10,831 nucleotides of DNA from the NCBI GenBank assembly GCA_016212295.1, contig JACRGO010000074.1, positions 1-10,831 on the forward strand. The letters run 5' to 3'. Numbering within the stretch: position 1 is the first letter of the stretch; each line of letters opens with the position of its first letter. The notes beneath the pieces are model-generated. The model was not told the DNA's origin. It searched no databases and was given only the letters and a program-made list of their open reading frames with translations. The stretch is from Nitrospinota bacterium (lineage in GTDB: Bacteria; Nitrospinota; Nitrospinia; JACRGO01). Made by a program: the position numbers and the translations under genes. Shown piece after piece: positions 103 to 9,272 of this stretch.

Positions 103-350
103 AACAAAAAAGACACAGAAAGGGCTAAACTGTTACAAAAAATCAATGAAATGCGCAATACACCCGGATTGGAGGTATGGCAACGTAATTACTACGAACA
201 CATCATTCGAAAGAGAATAAACTAAACCTGATTCGGCAATATATCGTTAACAACCCGTTGAAATGGGGATTTGACAGAGAAAATCCAGCAAACGTAGGGG
301 CGTATGGCAAAGAAGGGGCGTATTGCTATACGCCCCTACAGGATGAATTG
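103..350 (+). pseudogene. REP-associated Y1 (IS200-like) transposase remnant
   Basis: Two adjacent frames together read like the C-terminal half of a RAYT, a single-strand DNA transposase that handles REP palindromes. Bases 103-212 encode Lys/Gln-rich sequence, then the family-typical RNTPG (157-171) and VWQRNYYEHIIR (175-210). One base is missing near 211-213, which leaves a TAA at 223. In the next frame the homology resumes (ENKLNLIRQYIVNNPLKW, 213-266) and continues through a palindrome. The N-terminal half with the HUH motif is absent, so the gene is inactive. The Tyr-Tyr pair near 190-195 probably includes the catalytic tyrosine of the family, but this is inferred. A stop at 100-102 closes the frame upstream. 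The 3' limit is uncertain, since the frame stays open to 389 but family-like sequence ends around 290. Confidence 0.75.
294..339. repeat. REP-like palindrome beside the transposase remnant
   Basis: GTAGGGGCGTAT at 294-305 has its exact reverse complement at 328-339. A second copy of the left half, GGGGCGTAT at 315-323, forms a tighter perfect 9-bp hairpin with 328-336 over a four-base loop (TGCT). GC-rich palindromes of this form are typical substrates and mobile partners of RAYT transposases, and this one lies inside or at the 3' end of such a gene. A related palindrome is present at 5563-5582. The element also supplies the first codons of the hsdS fragment frame. Confidence 0.75.
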
Positions 351-1008
351 CAAACCATCCTGGAAGGGAATGACGCTGGAAAGATATGAGTTGCCGGAGG
401 GATGGAAGTGGAAAAGGCTTTCTGATCCAGAGGTTTGTTTACTCAATCCTAAGAAAAGTGAGTTGAAAAATTTATCGGATTCAACATCGGTTACTTTTGT
501 TCCTATGGCTGCTGTGGACGAAGTTTCGGGCACAATAGCAAAACTTGAAGTAAGAAGGCTGGACGAAGTGCGTAAGGGATATACATATTTTGCTGAGGGA
601 GATGTGATTTTCGCCAAAATTACCCCTTGCATGGAAAATGGTAAGTCAGCAATAGCACGTAAACTCACTAATGGTGTGGGCTTTGGTTCTACAGAATTTC
701 ATGTGCTTCGACCACTCACACAGATGATACCTGAGTGGTTGCATATGCTTGTTAGAAGCAAGATCGTTAGAGACGAAGCGAAAAATAGTATGTACGGCGC
801 AGCAGGACAACAACGTGTGCCCATTGATTTTTTTAAGGAACTCGAAATCCCCATCCCGCCACTACCCGAACAGCGCCGCATCGTCAAGCGCATTGAAGAA
901 TTAACGAGGCGGGTTGAGGCAACGAGAAAACTTATAAAGGAAGCCGAATCAGAACTGGCTGCCTTTACTCCGGCCCTGTTGTCAAAGGCATTTAGAGGGG
1001 CGTTGTGA
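304..1008 (+). CDS. hsdS: HsdS C-terminal half (one target-recognition domain)
   Basis: HsdS is the DNA specificity subunit of type I restriction-modification, working with HsdM and HsdR. Homology starts around residue 26 (YELPEGWKWKRLSD), the usual opening of a target-recognition domain. It runs through one such domain to about residue 180. It ends with the conserved helical region (PIPPLPEQRRIVKRIEEL, about 183-200) and the terminal AFRGAL. At 234 residues it is roughly half a normal HsdS of about 400-450, so the first recognition domain and central spacer are gone. The first 22 residues come from the palindrome and are unlikely to be native. Other starts are ATG 343 and ATG 370, the latter directly after GGAAGGGA. 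No hsdM or hsdR is visible. Half-size HsdS proteins can act as dimers, but beside a transposase scar this is more likely a remnant. Its stop overlaps the next frame by four bases. Confidence 0.85.
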   Translation: MAKKGRIAIRPYRMNCKPSWKGMTLERYELPEGWKWKRLSDPEVCLLNPKKSELKNLSDSTSVTFVPMAAVDEVSGTIAKLEVRRLDEVRKGYTYFAEGDVIFAKITPCMENGKSAIARKLTNGVGFGSTEFHVLRPLTQMIPEWLHMLVRSKIVRDEAKNSMYGAAGQQRVPIDFFKELEIPIPPLPEQRRIVKRIEELTRRVEATRKLIKEAESELAAFTPALLSKAFRGAL

Positions 1009-1542
1009 AGGTAATTCTCTTTATTCCAACAATCAATGATTACACTGCAGCTAATTTTGATGTCTTGTTCAGCCTCTGGAATCAGGTAAATAATGACAAC
1101 CTGGACGTGACCTTTGAATTCAGCCAGTGCGGGTTTTTGCGTCACAACGCTGTTGCATTTCTCGGTGGCCTCGCGCGTCTAATACAAATCAGAGGGCGTT
1201 GGAATACCGTCTAATGTAAGAATGTTTTTCAAACATGATCCACGCTCACAGTCCTTGAGCGCCGCAAGCTGCCTGAAATGGGCCTTTCAACGCGGGACAA
1301 CCACAAGGCCTAACGGCACAAGCCGAGGCATGGGGCTTGATCTGCTTAAAGAGTTCGTAAAGCTCAATAAGGGAAAGCTTGAGGTATTCAGCCACGAGGG
1401 TTATGCTATAATAGACAGCAAGCGGGAAGAGTTCATGGACAGGTCTGCCTTTTTTGAGGGTACTCTTATCAATATAACTTTTATTTGCGATGAATCCTAT
1501 TGCCACTCTGCATCAGAAGTTGTTGACGGGCCGCTTTTCTAG
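1005..1542 (+). pseudogene. GHKL-type ATP-binding protein with internal deletion
   Basis: Two pieces of one gene are visible. The first (GTG at 1005, overlapping the hsdS stop as GTGA) encodes about 65 residues containing FEFSQCGFLRHNAVAFLGGL, an N-terminal STAS-like stretch, to RLIQIRG near 1196. The second runs in another frame from about 1195: GVGIPSNVRMFFKHDP, then SRGMGLDLLKEFVKLNKGKL, to the TAG at 1540. GVGIP and SRGMGL look like the ATP-lid glycine motifs of GHKL ATPases. The N-box helix (Glu/Asn) and the first Asp motif that should lie between are missing. The join at GGGCG therefore reads as a deletion, probably over 100 codons, plus a frameshift. The product cannot bind ATP normally. 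The remaining parts are well conserved in character, so the break looks recent. The family call is from recalled motifs and not from a search. Confidence 0.7.
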
Positions 1543-1560
1543 GCGATGGGAGGTTTTAAA

Positions 1561-1908
1561 ATGAAAATCAGCGTATTCGATCTGATTGGTGAAAATTGCA
1601 TTACGTTTGATGATGGCCAGAAGATTTATGGCCTGATATACCCTGAATTATCGGGCGGCAATGCGGTTGACCTTGATTTCAAGGATGTAAAAATATTCGC
1701 GACGCCATTTTTAAATCTTGCCTTTGGGCGGCTGCTCAAGGATATCAAACCGGATGATCTTAACCGCCTCCTTAAAATTACAAACATGCTTCCTACCGGC
1801 CTGGCAGCCCTCAGAAGAGTTATTGAAAACTCCAAGGAATACTATTCCAACCCCAATGTCCGCAAGGCCGTTGATGAAATCCTGCTTGAGCAATCCGAGG
1901 CGGCATAA
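1561..1908 (+). CDS. STAS-like DUF4325 protein
   Basis: This 115-residue protein matches the pattern of the STAS-like DUF4325 family. It has an N-terminal beta-strand pair (MKISVFDLIGENCITFDDG), a central LDFKDVKIFATPFLNLAFG and a C-terminal helix. STAS domains of the anti-sigma-antagonist type fold similarly and bind GHKL kinases, which fits the ATPase gene immediately upstream. The partnership is inferred. I chose ATG 1561 over the in-frame ATG 1546 because GGGAGG (1548-1553) lies seven bases upstream of 1561. The stop TAA overlaps the ATG of the PIN fragment (TAATG), so the genes are translationally coupled. It looks intact although both neighbours are broken. DNA- or ligand-binding residues are not evident. 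Confidence 0.75.
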   Translation: MKISVFDLIGENCITFDDGQKIYGLIYPELSGGNAVDLDFKDVKIFATPFLNLAFGRLLKDIKPDDLNRLLKITNMLPTGLAALRRVIENSKEYYSNPNVRKAVDEILLEQSEAA

Positions 1909-2057
1909 TGGCGGCCAATTATTCAGTCCATGCCGAAGTAGTGAATATCCGCAATGATATGCCAGTACAAGATGATATTTTTTTTGTCGATACGAATGTG
2001 TGGTACTGGCTCGCTTCAAAAACTAGCCCGGCAGGTAGATATTTTGATGTGGTTTGA
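1908..2057 (+). pseudogene. PIN-domain nuclease, truncated after the first motif
   Basis: The ATG overlaps the previous stop, and a GAGG (1897-1900) upstream serves as its ribosome site. The 49 codons contain FFVDTNVWYWL, the first acidic motif (Asp of DTN) of PIN-domain ribonucleases. The frame then stops at TGA 2055-2057. A PIN domain needs about 120 or more residues and three or four acidic residues, so this is a 3'-truncated remnant without activity. In the intact locus it would be the effector candidate, after an ATPase and a STAS-like protein. The sequence following in another frame (2048-2131) may be its displaced tail or a fragment of a different gene. Confidence 0.65.
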
Positions 2058-4369: not shown

Positions 4370-5488
4370 ATGGAAAACGAAAGAGTTCCACAGGGCCTGA
4401 AATTGAATTCAGGGGACTATAATATCGTTGGCAGCAGCGTCAAAATGATGGAGGTCTTCCAGGTCCTCCAAAAGGTGGCCCCTACTGACAGCACGATCCT
4501 CATAACCGGCGAGAGCGGCACCGGCAAGGAATTGATCGCCAGGGCCGCGCACATGAACAGCCACCGCCGCGCCAAACCCTTGGTGGCAGTGAATTGCGGC
4601 GCCATCCCGGAGGACTTGCTGGAAAGCGAGCTTTTCGGCCATGAAAAAGGGTCCTTCACAGGGGCCATCAGGACCAGAATCGGGCGGTTTGAGCTTGCCC
4701 ACGAGGGGACCATTTTCCTGGACGAAATCGGCAACATGAGCCCTAACCTCCAGGTGAAAATCCTGCGCATACTGCAGGAGCAGGTCTTTGAAAGGGTCGG
4801 CGGCGCGAAATCCATAAAGACCAACGCCCGCATCGTGGCCGCCACCAACGCGGACCTGGAAAAAAGGATACAGGAAGGAAAATTCCGCGAGGACCTGTTC
4901 TACCGGCTCAACGTCATCCCCATCACCCTTCCGCCGCTCCGGGAAAGAAAAAGCGATATCCCCATTCTAGCTAATTATTTCCTGGATAAATACCGCAAGT
5001 CCCATAACTCCATAGTGGAGGAAATCTCGGAAAGCGCCATGAACGTCCTCGTCAACTACGAATGGTTCGGGAACGTCCGCGAGCTGGAAAACATCATGGA
5101 GCGGCTGGTGGTCCTCTGTCCGGGCCGGAAAATAACCACAAAGGAGCTCCCGGAAAAAATCCTGAAATCCGATGGAAAAGGAGCGGCCGTCAATTCCCAC
5201 CAGGCTGAACTCTTCGCCGAGGAGGAAGAGGCGCTGGAAAAGCCAATTCAGGAAGACGTCATGGCCGCGATCAAGCAGAATTTTCAAGGCTCCTTTTTTA
5301 CCGGCATCCCGGCGGAGGGCGTCTGCCTGAAGACAATGGTGGAAAACTTTGAAAGAGAGATGATCCTTGAGGCCCTGGACAAAACCAATTGGGTCAAAAA
5401 CAAGGCATGCAAGCTCCTTAATCTGAACCGGACCACCCTGGTGGAAAAGATAAAAAAATTGGGACTGCAACGGGATAATGAAGAGTGA
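4370..5488 (+). CDS. Sigma-54 activator, PspF architecture (AAA+ plus Fis HTH)
   Basis: A 372-residue bacterial enhancer-binding protein that would remodel sigma-54 RNA polymerase using ATP. The AAA+ domain begins at about residue 18 with no receiver, GAF or PAS domain before it. It shows Walker A GESGTGKE (47-54), the sigma-54 contact loop GSFTGA (94-99, GAFTGA with Ala to Ser), Walker [10 protein letters not shown] (113-121) and the [10 protein letters not shown] segment. A C-terminal Fis-type helix-turn-helix (about 325-367) contains [14 protein letters not shown]. An acidic linker of about 50 residues makes it longer than PspF (around 325). PspF likewise lacks a sensory domain and is inhibited directly by PspA. 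A PspA-family gene lies 3.1 kb downstream, so control by that protein is a reasonable inference. The ATG is the first after an in-frame stop at 4355. No ribosome site is obvious. The stop codon lies in a repeat. Confidence 0.9.
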
Positions 5489-5743: not shown

Positions 5744-6637
5744 ATGAACAATTTTTTTCTTAGCGTAGCCGACAATCTCGCATGCTTCGTGTCAGCGGCC
5801 ACGGTGGCCCTGCTGGGGCTGTATTTTTACGACTGGACCACTCCCTTTCAATTTAAATCGGAACTGAGCGAAAAGGACAATCCGGCGTTCGGGATCCATA
5901 TAACGGGTTATATCATCGGCCTGATGATTATAGTCATGGCCGCCGCTTCCCCGTCCGGCGGGGAGCTTCCGCATCCGGTTGATATATGGGTGTTCGGGGG
6001 ACTGGCGGTGGTCCTTTTCAGGTTCGGCGCCATCGTAACCGACAAACTGATTCTCCCCGCGTTTTCGGATTGGAAGGAAATCTCAGAGGACCGGAATATA
6101 GGCGTCGGCTTCGTCACCGCGGGGGTTTTTATCGCCACGGGGTCAATTTTAAAAGGCGCCCTCACAGGGGAGAGTTCCGGCCTCCTCATGGGAATTCTGA
6201 CCACTGTGGAATATTTCATCTTTTCACAGATAATCCTGGTGGCCGCTTCCTCCCTTTATGCCAAACTGCGGAAATACAAACACAATGACGGCTCGACCCT
6301 GACAGTCATTCAGGAACTGCGTGACAACGACAACCCGGCGGTTGGGCTTTCCTTCGCCGGATTTATCGTGGGCGCCGCCCTTGTGGTCTCGGCCTCAATC
6401 GATGGAAATGACATCACCTCGATGGACAAGCTTTTTCACGTGCTGTGGACCCTGCTGGCAAGCAGCGTATTGGGCGTCGGCTCCATGCTGCTTATTCAAC
6501 CATTCGTCGATAAAGCGGTCCTGCCTTACGCTTCCGTGAATAACGAAGTGGGCCAGCAAAAAAACATGGCCATAGCGGGCGTAAACGCCGCTTTTTACGT
6601 TGGCCTTGGGCTGATTCTGTACAGCCTGACGGCGTGA
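5744..6637 (+). CDS. Tandem DUF350 (YjfL-like) inner-membrane protein
   Basis: A 297-residue integral membrane protein with about eight helices (roughly 6-28, 48-68, 80-104, 119-138, 145-172, 199-218, 228-255, 275-295). A motif of Asn-x-Ala/Gly-x-Gly type recurs four times: DNPAFGIHITG (45), DRNIGVGFVTAG (116), DNPAVGLSFAG (196) and KNMAIAGVNAA (273). The protein is therefore an internal duplication of the DUF350 unit and about twice the length of E. coli YjfL. The family's function is unknown. DUF350 genes recur beside PspA/YjfJ and amidoligase genes, as here. The start is fixed by an in-frame TAA six bases upstream. No strong ribosome site is seen. It is probably the first gene of a cluster reaching 9272. 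Confidence 0.85.
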   Translation: MNNFFLSVADNLACFVSAATVALLGLYFYDWTTPFQFKSELSEKDNPAFGIHITGYIIGLMIIVMAAASPSGGELPHPVDIWVFGGLAVVLFRFGAIVTDKLILPAFSDWKEISEDRNIGVGFVTAGVFIATGSILKGALTGESSGLLMGILTTVEYFIFSQIILVAASSLYAKLRKYKHNDGSTLTVIQELRDNDNPAVGLSFAGFIVGAALVVSASIDGNDITSMDKLFHVLWTLLASSVLGVGSMLLIQPFVDKAVLPYASVNNEVGQQKNMAIAGVNAAFYVGLGLILYSLTA

Positions 6638-6652
6638 GAAAAGTGAACAGCC

Positions 6653-6727
6653 ATTGGTCAATAGTAAAATCATAAAAACACCAACAACTGACAACTGACA
6701 ACTGACCACTGACTAATGACCAATGAC
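6653..6727 (+). repeat. Heptamer array of six units with an inverted copy
   Basis: From 6686 to 6727 six exact 7-base steps occur: AACTGAC three times, then CACTGAC, TAATGAC and CAATGAC. ATTGGTCA at 6653-6660 is the reverse complement of TGACCAAT at 6717-6724, so the whole segment can also fold back. It fills the gap between the DUF350 gene and the next start codon, ending five bases before it, and leaves no room for a normal ribosome site. Confidence 0.7.
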
Positions 6728-6732
6728 ATAAT

Positions 6733-7398
6733 ATGATGAAACGTTTCTTCACGATCATTGCTCTTAGCGCCTTCTTTTTTTCCCTGATCCCTGACCTTCC
6801 AGCCGAGGCCAGGCGGGGTTTTGGAGGCGGAGGTTTCGGCCGTTCTTCTTCCTTAAGCGGAAGCATGGGACGCTCAGGGTGGGGAAGTTCATCCAGAAGC
6901 TCCCTGGGCGCTGAGTGCTCCTTTTCCTCCTGGGGGCGCTCATCGCGCCAGGCCACGACCACCGTCCCGCCCTCTCCGAATGCCAGGCCTTCCGGATGGA
7001 CCGGGGGAAACATGGACAAACGCATTGGGACCAGCGGAAAGATTTTCAACTCCAGAAGCGAGGCGGAAGACGCCTTCAGGAGAGACGTTAAAACCAAGTG
7101 GGACCGTGAACCATCGGCCAGGCCTGAATACGTCCCCAATACCTATTCCTCCGGCGGAAGGAATTATGACGTGGTTTTTAATAACGGCGGCTACGGCTAT
7201 TGGGGTCCCGGCAATACATGGATGGCGCTTTCCGCTGCCAGCATGCTGTTGAACGCGGGCCTTTTGGCGAACCACGGCTATTATTACGGCACTCCCCATT
7301 ACGCGGGCGGAGGTGGAGGAGGAAGTTCAGGTTTTTTTATAGTGCTGATGATTTTTGTGTTCGTGGCCGTGGCGGGAAGCAGGGCGAGAAGGTTTTAG
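6733..7398 (+). CDS. Secreted Gly/Ser-rich protein with C-terminal membrane segment
   Basis: 221 residues. A signal peptide (MMKR, hydrophobic 5-20, likely cleavage after AEA at 24-26) is followed by a Gly/Ser/Arg-rich low-complexity region (27-75). A conserved-looking middle comes next (about 100-150, with NSRSEAEDAFRRD, PSARPEYVP and GRNYDVVF), then aromatic Gly/Tyr repeats (150-190), GGGGGG, and a hydrophobic segment (201-215) ending in RARRF. The protein should be anchored at or beyond the inner membrane, facing the periplasm. I do not recognise a named family. Proteins of this look occur beside DUF350 genes, which is recalled context and not tested. Two adjacent ATGs (6733, 6736) are possible starts. 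It contains one cysteine (61) and no catalytic motif. Confidence 0.7.
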   Translation: MMKRFFTIIALSAFFFSLIPDLPAEARRGFGGGGFGRSSSLSGSMGRSGWGSSSRSSLGAECSFSSWGRSSRQATTTVPPSPNARPSGWTGGNMDKRIGTSGKIFNSRSEAEDAFRRDVKTKWDREPSARPEYVPNTYSSGGRNYDVVFNNGGYGYWGPGNTWMALSAASMLLNAGLLANHGYYYGTPHYAGGGGGGSSGFFIVLMIFVFVAVAGSRARRF

Positions 7399-7419
7399 GG
7401 ACTCAAAAATTAAAAACAT

Positions 7420-7500
7420 ACCGCGGAGACACAGAGACGCTGAGGAAGACATATATTGAAATTAAAATTTTTTTTCTCCGCGCCACTGCGTCTCCGCGGT
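7420..7500. repeat. Imperfect 81-bp inverted repeat (CCGCGGAGAC arms)
   Basis: The left arm begins ACCGCGGAGACACAGAG (7420-7436). The right arm ends with TGCGTCTCCGCGGT (7487-7500). Reversed, the right arm starts ACCGCGGAGACGCAG, so the outer 11 bases match exactly and the rest imperfectly. An AT-rich centre separates the arms. The 14 bases at 7487-7500 recur exactly at 8113-8126. It looks like a palindromic intergenic element. A transcript could form a long hairpin between the flanking genes. Confidence 0.65.
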
Positions 7501-7517
7501 TAATAAATGGTTAAAAA

Positions 7518-8066
7518 ATGTATCTTGACTTCATAACTCAAAACAGCACGGTCACGCTTTCAGAGCCGTCCCTCATGGAATTTTTCGGCGGAATGCCGGA
7601 ATTTTCCGTGAAGAAGATCCGCCGCCTCAGGCATCCCAACTTCCAAATGGTCCAGGTATTCATAAGCAGTCCGAGGATGGATGCAGGACTGATGCTGGCC
7701 AACCGTCTCACGGAAGGAGAGGACGGGGACGGCGATCTGGCGATTTTCCAGGAGGACCACACCGGCCATGTGGACCAGCTTGGGCCGGAGCACCTTTCGC
7801 CTGACAAGGAAAATTTCGCCGCTGAATTCAAGGCTGTATACACGGATGAAGGCCGGCCCCCATTTGAGGTAAAATATCGTTTGGTGAGGGCCGGGGAATT
7901 CCACGGAATTCGTGACGCCCAAAAAGAAGAGGCCCTGCTCTCCCAAGGCATATACGACACCCAGGACGACCAGAATTTCCCCCTCGCCATGGTGGAGTGG
8001 GAGCGCGACTGGCTCACGGCCTGGTTCGGAAAGGAGTTAAGGAAGGACCAAGCGGCCTTCTTGTAA
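7518..8066 (+). CDS. Unrecognised soluble 182-aa protein of the Psp-like cluster
   Basis: I do not recognise the family. The protein is acidic, with no signal peptide or membrane helix. Visible features are a basic stretch VKKIRRLRHP (31-40), a predicted beta-rich core (MVQVFISSPRMDAGLML, 44-60), an acidic EGEDGDGDLAIFQED (66-80), and a C-terminal WERDWLTAWFGKELRKDQ (161-178) rich in Trp and charge. The start is set by an in-frame TAA at 7512-7514, with no Shine-Dalgarno. In E. coli yjf clusters the comparable place is held by DUF2491 (YjfK), but I see no convincing resemblance. Codon and base use match the neighbours, so it belongs to the cluster. Confidence 0.65.
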   Translation: MYLDFITQNSTVTLSEPSLMEFFGGMPEFSVKKIRRLRHPNFQMVQVFISSPRMDAGLMLANRLTEGEDGDGDLAIFQEDHTGHVDQLGPEHLSPDKENFAAEFKAVYTDEGRPPFEVKYRLVRAGEFHGIRDAQKEEALLSQGIYDTQDDQNFPLAMVEWERDWLTAWFGKELRKDQAAFL

Positions 8067-8091
8067 ATGCAGGAAAGAATGATGCATGGCG

Positions 8092-8126
8092 CTTAGTGTT
8101 TCTTGGTGGCTTTGCGTCTCCGCGGT
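8092..8126 (+). repeat. Half copy of the CCGCGG repeat fused to a CTTGGTGG array
   Basis: TGCGTCTCCGCGGT (8113-8126) is identical to the right arm at 7487-7500. The preceding CTTAGTGTTTCTTGGTGGC resembles the reverse complement of the array at 4311-4334. No left arm is present. The sequence occupies the gap between two genes of the cluster. Confidence 0.6.
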
Positions 8127-8163
8127 AAACCAATTATAAAAAATTTTCTTGAAGGAGAAAAAC

Positions 8164-8559
8164 ATGGCGATCAATCAGGCGTCAATAACGGAAAAGGAGG
8201 TCGGTGTCTGCGCTCAGGTTAAGGACCATCTCATCCGTCTGGGGATAGGCTTCGAGACCACTGAACGGCCCGACATCCTTATTATCAACGAACCGGAAAC
8301 CAACATTCCCATCACAATCGACGCGGAGGAAACCGTGGTGTGCCTGCGCATCACGGTTTGCGATGAAAAGAAGGACAAGGATTTTTACCTCAAGCTTCTC
8401 AGGGCCAACGCCCTCATCTCCCACGGGCATTTCCAGATAGAAAACGGGAAGGTTATCCTTGCCGAGAACCTGGAAGCCGAGAACCTGGACGCCAACGAAT
8501 TGGAGGCGTCCATAGCCTCACTAGTGGCCGCTGTGATTCAAAACTCCGGCTGGCTGTAA
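8164..8559 (+). CDS. Small YjfI/YbjN-like protein (tentative)
   Basis: 131 residues. I chose ATG 8164 because AAGGAG (8152-8157) lies six bases upstream; an in-frame TTG at 8149 overlaps that site and is rejected. The layout is an N-terminal helix (15-27), beta strands (38-42, 49-52, 58-65), then FYLKLLRANALISHGHFQI (74-92), strand and C-terminal helix (112-127). This order, with a Leu/Asn helix followed by a strand pair, recalls YbjN/type III chaperone-like folds and YjfI (DUF2170), which sits before YjfJ in E. coli. The resemblance is by pattern only. A short internal repeat, AENLEAENLDANELEA (100-115), is notable. It ends 32 bases before the PspA-like gene and is probably cotranscribed with it. 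Confidence 0.6.
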   Translation: MAINQASITEKEVGVCAQVKDHLIRLGIGFETTERPDILIINEPETNIPITIDAEETVVCLRITVCDEKKDKDFYLKLLRANALISHGHFQIENGKVILAENLEAENLDANELEASIASLVAAVIQNSGWL

Positions 8560-8591
8560 CATAACAAACCTTTTTCACTCAGGAGAAAAAA

Positions 8592-9272
8592 ATGAACGTT
8601 ATTTCATCGGTATTCAGATGGGTAAGGGCAAAAAGCTCGGAAACAGCGGAGGCCATTGAAACAGCGAACGCAGTGGCCTTCGCCAGGCAGGACCTTGAAA
8701 ATCTGGAAAAGGACCGGGACTCAGCCCGGAACGCCATCGCCTCGATAAAGGCCGAAATAGCCCGTCTGGAACGGGACGTGAACGACAAGAAGGCCGCTGT
8801 CGCGGCGAAAACCGCGGACGCCGAGGCATTGCTTGCCAAGGGCAAGGAAGACCTGGCCAAGCAAGTTTGCGCCCTGATAGAAGACATGGAGGGGGAAATC
8901 CCGGTCCTGGAAAAGGCATTGGAACAGCAAAGGCAACTCTGCTTACAGCAGGAACAACAATTTCATCAACTTAACCAGGCGGTAAGCGACGCGCGAAGAA
9001 GCCTTAAAATGATGCAAACCATGGAGGCAGTGGCGGCCAGCACGGAAAAGGCGGCCGGGGTGAAAATCGGGGACGGCAGCAACGCCCTTGCCAGATTTAA
9101 AAAAAGGGAGGCCGCCATACAGATGCGCCTTGATAAGGCCCAGGCCGCCTCGGCTCTCAGTCTCCCGGCTGAACAAAGGCTCGATGACCAGGTCAAGGCC
9201 GCCCTCGGTTCCGGAAAAGGGGTTTCGGTTTTGGCCCGCCTCAAGGCCAGGGAAATGAAGCAGCTTTCGTGA
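8592..9272 (+). CDS. yjfJ: PspA/IM30 family protein, YjfJ type
   Basis: 226 residues, almost entirely helical, with a long coiled coil (about 34-150) of Lys/Glu/Ala/Arg heptads, as in PspA, IM30/Vipp1 and other ESCRT-III-like proteins that assemble on the inner membrane. The C-terminal third has NALARFKKREAAIQMRLDKA (164-183), a DD region and VLARLKAREMK (213-223). This parallels the LKRLQ/ARLDAA/VLARL pattern of E. coli YjfJ more than classical PspA. An N-terminal amphipathic stretch (VISSVFRWVRAK, 3-14) suits membrane binding. AGGAG (8581-8585) gives a clear ribosome site. It is the last gene of the cluster. In PspF systems PspA binds and inhibits the activator, and the activator at 4370 is the candidate partner. 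Confidence 0.85.
   Translation: MNVISSVFRWVRAKSSETAEAIETANAVAFARQDLENLEKDRDSARNAIASIKAEIARLERDVNDKKAAVAAKTADAEALLAKGKEDLAKQVCALIEDMEGEIPVLEKALEQQRQLCLQQEQQFHQLNQAVSDARRSLKMMQTMEAVAASTEKAAGVKIGDGSNALARFKKREAAIQMRLDKAQAASALSLPAEQRLDDQVKAALGSGKGVSVLARLKAREMKQLS

Follow-up and report, generated by a model that had tools for sequence, protein, structure and literature searches.

The segment between positions 1005 and 2057 of the window (all 10,831 bases of contig G000:C20, from an assembly of 237 contigs) is almost certainly a decayed vapKSC locus for a kinase, an antitoxin and a toxin, which travelled with a type I restriction-modification (R-M) operon. As intact relatives indicate, VapK would phosphorylate VapS at Ser/Thr48 and VapC would be freed, probably as a second line after restriction. 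The system itself is already known; what is added here is that intact vapKSC loci are embedded repeatedly in R-M and other defence operons. An orphan-looking DUF4325 gene can now be assigned to a system for which a crystal structure and a phage phenotype are available.

VapKSC is a toxin-antitoxin system for which a role in phage defence was shown by experiment (Chambers et al., EMBO J 2026; PMC13373217; PDB 9z7o). In the Escherichia system, the only one for which phage protection and toxin/antitoxin activity were shown, VapC is toxic, its activity is blocked when VapS binds to it, VapS with the phospho-mimic S48E no longer has this effect, and the operon confers about 2-log protection against phage Bas42, for which D28 of VapC, S48 of VapS and F54 of VapK are needed (PMC13373217). 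Activation by ssDNA was shown for the cousin CapK and is predicted for VapK, which was insoluble as a protein and has its own predicted sensing groove (PMC13373217). The response would start with phosphorylation of VapS on Ser/Thr48 by VapK, a step shown or strongly supported in the Escherichia system; phosphorylated VapS would then let go of the PIN RNase VapC, and growth would stop. In the hsd-linked form, restriction of phage DNA and repair may yield ssDNA that trips VapK, and VapC would act as second line once restriction has begun but is perhaps insufficient.

Table 1 Features of the decayed vapKSC locus and its surroundings in the window, and the second copy in the same genome
Feature	Position	Strand	Evidence or state
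hsdS, half-length type I specificity subunit, 212 aa, one recognition domain	370..1008	+	Pfam Methylase_S E 1.4e-13; PADLOC Specificity_I E 1.4e-77
VapK fragment 1, N-terminal STAS-like domain piece	1005..1194 (ORF to 1214)	+	Kinase profile 3-71, E 5e-13; 80% DNA identity to L193 up to 1195
Junction of 352-bp out-of-frame internal deletion	1194..1195	.	DNA alignment with L193 and L064; conserved alignment columns
VapK fragment 2, C-terminal part of GHKL kinase domain with G2 box	1195..1542 (ORF 1222-1542)	+	Kinase profile 180-290, E 1.7e-39
Putative ribosome-binding site GGGAGG before vapS	1548..1553	+	Sequence
vapS, intact STAS-like (DUF4325) antitoxin, 115 aa, Thr48 at phospho-acceptor position	1561..1908	+	PF14213 E 3.4e-13; PDB 9z7o; STAS fold of model
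vapC stub, about 35 residues of PIN toxin N-terminus including Asp28, remainder lost	1908..2057	+	PIN profile 1-41, E 2.6e-12; L193 homology ends at 2009
Second decayed vapKSC, same genome, clade B	L003 (C99) 7000-8029 and L220 (C19) 120-444		Kinase 5'-truncated, VapS intact, VapC split

Downstream of hsdS, the window contains open reading frames of 69 aa, 106 aa (in another frame), 115 aa (DUF4325) and 49 aa, which represent three genes on one strand in the order kinase, STAS antitoxin and PIN toxin, the kinase being a remnant and the PIN gene a stub. The TGA stop codon of hsdS (1006-1008) overlaps with the GTG start of the next frame at position 1005 (GTGA), and the TAA stop codon of the DUF4325 gene (1906-1908) overlaps with the ATG of the PIN gene (1908-1910; TAATG). 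An earlier note on this DNA, made from the sequence, had described three ordered genes joined in this way, and the coordinates confirm it.

VapS is the component that is identified most directly. The window protein aligns with residues 2-112 of the crystallised Escherichia VapS (PDB 9z7o) at an E value of 4.5e-19, its Thr48 falling on Ser48, and a profile of the VapS family matches the Escherichia protein at E 3.2e-31. It combines the STAS-like protein with the Ser/Thr48 position and the C-terminal tail and has no further domain within its 115 aa. The structural model (pLDDT 89) retrieves STAS proteins at Z 6-8 (VIA-align), and the best Foldseek hit has an E value of 0.18; because the latter is weak and Z 6-8 by itself is weak too, the identity of VapS rests on the match to the crystal sequence rather than on fold. 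The GGGAGG preceding the gene has the usual pattern of a ribosome-binding site, which we take it to be.

The kinase is represented by two pieces, window 1014-1226 matching positions 3-71 of the kinase profile and window 1195-1539 matching positions 180-290. The nearest relative of the window locus, L193 (a genome from a search around a Planctomycetes locus), is 80-82% identical at the DNA level over window 950-2009, and the comparison reveals one 352-bp out-of-frame deletion at window 1195. This deletion takes out the G1 Asp together with the N box and its E, N and H residues, and with them the ATP-binding core, so that the window vapK is a pseudogene. The alignment is clean on both flanks, which is atypical of an assembly error; the contig is of metagenome type, and the deletions are read from the assembled sequence. 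A VapK with all of its N, G1 and G2 boxes is present in the intact relatives and absent from the window; the E, N and H of the N box, the DxGxG of G1 and the G2 residues are invariant in 18 relatives. An AlphaFold model of the intact VapK of L064 (mean pLDDT 87) superposes on SpoIIAB with a Z score of 14.9 and an rmsd of 2.2 over 135 residues, well above the histidine kinases (Z 10.9 and lower); for residues 1-91 of the model, the STAS protein RsbV gives a Z score of 10.3. Judged by this model, intact VapK is a predicted STAS-like domain joined to a SpoIIAB-like kinase domain. The N-terminal STAS-like stretch of the earlier note is real, but in the window it sits on a separate fragment and not on the ATPase piece itself. 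A Phe or Trp residue, at most a candidate counterpart of the ssDNA-stacking aromatic residue F54 of Escherichia VapK, is conserved in the STAS-like domain of the relatives and in the window fragment. Since the VapK profile found no chain among the PDB sequences, membership of the kinase in the VapK family rests on fold, motifs and synteny.

In the case of the toxin, positions 1-41 of the PIN profile match window 1908-2030, and the homology to L193 ends after position 2009, inside the PIN gene. The acidic PIN residues D28, E78, D156, D159, D178 and D180 are conserved in the relatives, and the truncation in the window removes every catalytic acid except the equivalent of VapC Asp28; for this reason the window vapC is likewise a pseudogene. 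The PIN profile of the relatives matches Escherichia VapC (PDB 9z7o) at E 5.1e-53; with a limit of E 0.01, it retrieves no further chain from the PDB. That the PIN fragment might be an unrelated frame, a possible refutation named beforehand, is excluded by the profile match and by the overlap and start codon, which are conserved in the relatives. Pfam, PADLOC and NCBIfam gave no name to the kinase and PIN fragments of the window, which are too short for Pfam; profiles built from intact relatives do match them.

The likeness to VapKSC thus comprises three genes in the same order, a full-length match of VapS with S/T48 and C-terminal tail, D28 of VapC, and a STAS-like domain together with a GHKL kinase; the differences are that VapK and VapC of the window are broken and that many clade A relatives stand head-to-tail with R-M operons. 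As kinase and toxin are destroyed and VapS alone is whole, the switch cannot work in the window.

The DUF4325 protein of the window, the C99 copy from the same genome and a copy from a Deinococcus plasmid were aligned, and a scan of 84,980 genomes with this alignment retrieved intact relatives. These relatives were found in many phyla and carry a kinase-like ATPase of about 290 aa, a DUF4325 protein of 115-120 aa and a PIN protein of 180-209 aa. Together with the alignment to L193, they confirm the view that the module is broken here and intact elsewhere. Of 55 loci with a strong kinase match, nearly all have the order vapK-vapS-vapC (K-S-C), which supports the earlier proposal of an ATPase/STAS switch gating a PIN effector and attached to a type I R-M system, the module being VapKSC. 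When samples of four further phyla were searched with the kinase profile, matches were obtained in 26 of 395 genomes (E up to 1e-20) and in 9 of 343, 13 of 339 and 7 of 345 genomes (E up to 1e-40). In the phylum of the window, full-family matches of this profile were confined to the remnants in the window's own genome, all others being weaker (E 1e-33 and above). The plasmid search yielded one locus (Deinococcus gobiensis P5), the phage search one unannotated record, and the search of viral contigs one locus with the alignment (L110) and no match with the window VapS as single query.

Several other arrangements of DUF4325 genes were encountered. Weaker kinases (E about 1e-30) belong to kinase-DUF4325 pairs without a PIN gene (L212-L219, L175), one of which (L215) has a gene for a patatin-like phospholipase about 430 bp downstream. 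Methanosarcina and related organisms have DUF4325-PIN pairs without a kinase (L094, L095, L097, L098, L103, L106), and several such kinase-less pairs are located shortly 3' of a small open reading frame that, judged by eye, presumably encodes a LigD 3'-phosphoesterase-like domain. In the phylum of the window, a common and conserved DUF4325 gene of about 118 codons is followed by a gene for a TPR protein (L007, L023, L024, L026, L027, L032, L033), which constitutes a separate lineage without kinase or PIN gene, and open frames of about 345-370 aa contain a DUF4325 domain (L004-L006, L008-L011, L013 and others), perhaps with kinase and substrate fused in one chain. The objection that DUF4325 proteins rarely adjoin PIN or type I R-M genes fails for the subfamily of the window: almost all of its members with a kinase have a PIN gene next to them, and hsd genes or their remnants are neighbours in 18 of 77 loci. 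It holds for other lineages such as the DUF4325-TPR pair of the same phylum.

R-M, Hma, Qat or CRISPR genes were located close by and on the same strand in 30 of 77 VapS loci: 18 are linked to type I systems, 8 to type III (one a remnant), 2 to Hma, 1 to type ISP and 1 to a type I-C CRISPR system. This count is based on homology to HMM-checked neighbours and additionally includes L187, the hsdS remnant in L193 and the window. The usual type I arrangement is hsdR-hsdM-hsdS-vapK-vapS-vapC with start and stop codons overlapping or nearly touching; in L193, a C-terminal remnant of hsdS precedes vapK. A location between hsdS and hsdR, as envisaged in the earlier note, does not apply to the window, where hsdM and hsdR are absent from the contig, and was found in a single relative (L195), the usual place being after hsdS. 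The linked hsd genes belong to several families (L066-type, L198/L211, L182, L195/L196). In L208 (3171-9903), hsdM-hsdS, a complete QatA-D set and vapKSC follow each other on one strand, i.e. three defence systems with a QatD-vapK gap of 5 bases, and in L072 (4225-5055) a gene of the Ymh family (PADLOC PD-Lambda-3_B) is inserted between hsdS and vapK. VapKSC has thus been wired repeatedly into operons of DNA-cutting defences. PMC13373217 is the only paper naming VapKSC in the literature searched, a collection free of subscription papers and preprints, and a search of its text found no description of vapKSC inside R-M operons.

The repeated embedding suggests a back-up alarm behind a first line of defence. 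There is, in our estimate, an even chance that vapKSC is instead an independent mobile toxin-antitoxin cassette which lands in insertion-tolerant R-M regions without being tied functionally to restriction. Over half of the vapKSC loci examined lack an R-M gene in their vicinity, many copies stand solitary beside housekeeping genes (e.g. psaB-like and pheT-like open reading frames in L200/L201 and L191), and only 36% of the published VapKSC loci have a defence gene at a distance of up to 10 kb (PMC13373217). The linkage types are also scattered on the VapS tree, on which type I linkage needs at least 12 changes, 8 of them forced by well-supported branches; this tree is based on few columns and is unrooted, leaving the direction of change unset, and its labels undercount type I linkage because the hsdS remnant of L193 and the upstream hsdS of L208 were recognised later. 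Against a mere cassette stands the tightness of the junctions, as vapKSC lies on the same strand as hsdS, mod, HmaA/HmaB or QatD and either overlaps with them by 1-4 bases or is 0-5 bases away. Moreover, the module is found inside operons, between subunit genes: in L195 as mentioned, in L184 and L086 with mod and res on either side, in L185 flanked by HmaA and HmaB with a 4-base overlap at both ends, and in L093 between cas7 and cas4. Finally, 12 of 55 strong-kinase loci have hsdS as the gene immediately upstream, and in most of these the two genes overlap or are separated by no more than 2 bases. By chance, such adjacency would be expected for about 1 gene in 800, which by our own arithmetic follows from a maximum of 256 specificity-domain hits across 54 of these genomes.

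Somewhat short of an even chance, and thus offered tentatively, is the proposal that VapKSC is a general add-on repeatedly acquired by DNA-targeting defence operons (type I, III and ISP R-M, Hma, Qat, type I-C CRISPR), in which ssDNA from the operon's own cutting would fire VapK, resulting in a two-stage immune operon. For CapK/CapS and R-M systems, the feeding of ssDNA to the kinase by restriction was suggested previously (PMC13373217). The coupling of vapKSC to restriction is one that we infer from gene order, and defence genes cluster for other reasons too. The testable question raised is whether restriction enzymes have a suicide back-up of their own, triggered by the DNA ends they create.

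With respect to the window itself, VapS is at most an orphan antitoxin, which could still be made. A continued use of this protein against a VapC arriving on another element appears improbable to us. Such a use would fit an intact VapS with a good ribosome-binding site next to two broken partners, and also the second copy of the genome (C99/C19), which shows a like pattern. However, dN/dS values against L193 are 0.07-0.12 for VapS and for the kinase and toxin fragments alike (about 0.07 for both VapS and the kinase fragment, with synonymous sites near saturation), and because the fragments look as conserved as VapS, the decay looks recent. The loss of the toxin before the antitoxin, seen in both copies, is expected in any case since losing the antitoxin first would kill. 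The second vapC is split, with one half at an end of contig C99 and the other at an end of contig C19; both halves are flanked by an identical 20-bp sequence, in opposite orientation, which suggests an insertion element within this gene.

Four known systems resemble VapKSC in part. SpoIIAB/SpoIIAA and RsbW/RsbV share the folds of kinase and substrate, the E, N and H of the N box and an equivalent phospho-acceptor position, whereas VapKSC has no sigma factor and the partner is an RNase. CapK and CapS are also a STAS-GHKL kinase and a STAS substrate linked to defence genes, about 20% of their loci being located between an R-M operon and another immune operon (PMC13373217); in contrast to the PIN toxin as output here, CapS acts as a repressor and contains a winged-helix domain, and the kinase CapK begins with an HTH. 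Membership in this group was rejected, as VapS has no further domain and the kinases of the relatives, of about 290 aa, start with the STAS-like domain. VapBC also has a PIN-domain toxin, but VapB is a DNA-binding antitoxin, whereas VapS, the DUF4325/STAS partner found here, is under kinase control; assignment to VapBC was rejected for this reason. PrrC of the EcoprrI type I operon is likewise an RNase that serves as a second-line effector from within a type I R-M operon; it differs as an ABC-ATPase/HEPN anticodon nuclease of unrelated sequence that is silenced by the R-M enzyme itself, and a PrrC-type system was rejected on account of the PIN effector and the GHKL ATPase.

A guard after the model of PrrC, in which the restriction complex silences VapKSC by direct contact and a phage anti-restriction protein releases it, is very unlikely: the precedent exists in the release of PrrC by phage Stp (PMC3710099) and the gene coupling of vapKSC is as tight as that of prrC, but in the solved complex VapS silences VapC by direct binding and VapK has its predicted sensing groove, so that no contact with R-M proteins is needed (PMC13373217), and the occurrence of the module beside type III, Hma, Qat and CRISPR genes as well as alone means that no single partner complex is required.

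The remainder of the contig offers little of the R-M operon with which the decayed vapKSC locus travelled. Window 361-415 matches the hsdM/hsdS junction of L070, but hsdM and hsdR are absent from the whole contig; the complete set of hsdR, hsdM and hsdS is found in L066, L068, L071 and L198. Where hsdM and hsdR would be expected, positions 120-340 contain a frameshifted remnant. Recognised by eye, it reads like a REP-associated tyrosine transposase (VWQRNYYEHIIR..., RQYIVNNPLKWGFDRENP), which we presume it to be. Just 3' of the broken vapC, positions 2157-2414 encode an 85-aa protein of no recognised family. Further downstream, positions 5744-9272 carry in a row open reading frames that by eye are presumably of DUF350 type (membrane protein), DUF2491 type, YjfI-like and PspA-like (coiled coil), and they are preceded at 4370-5488 by a gene that we take, also by eye, to be sigma-54 activator-like.
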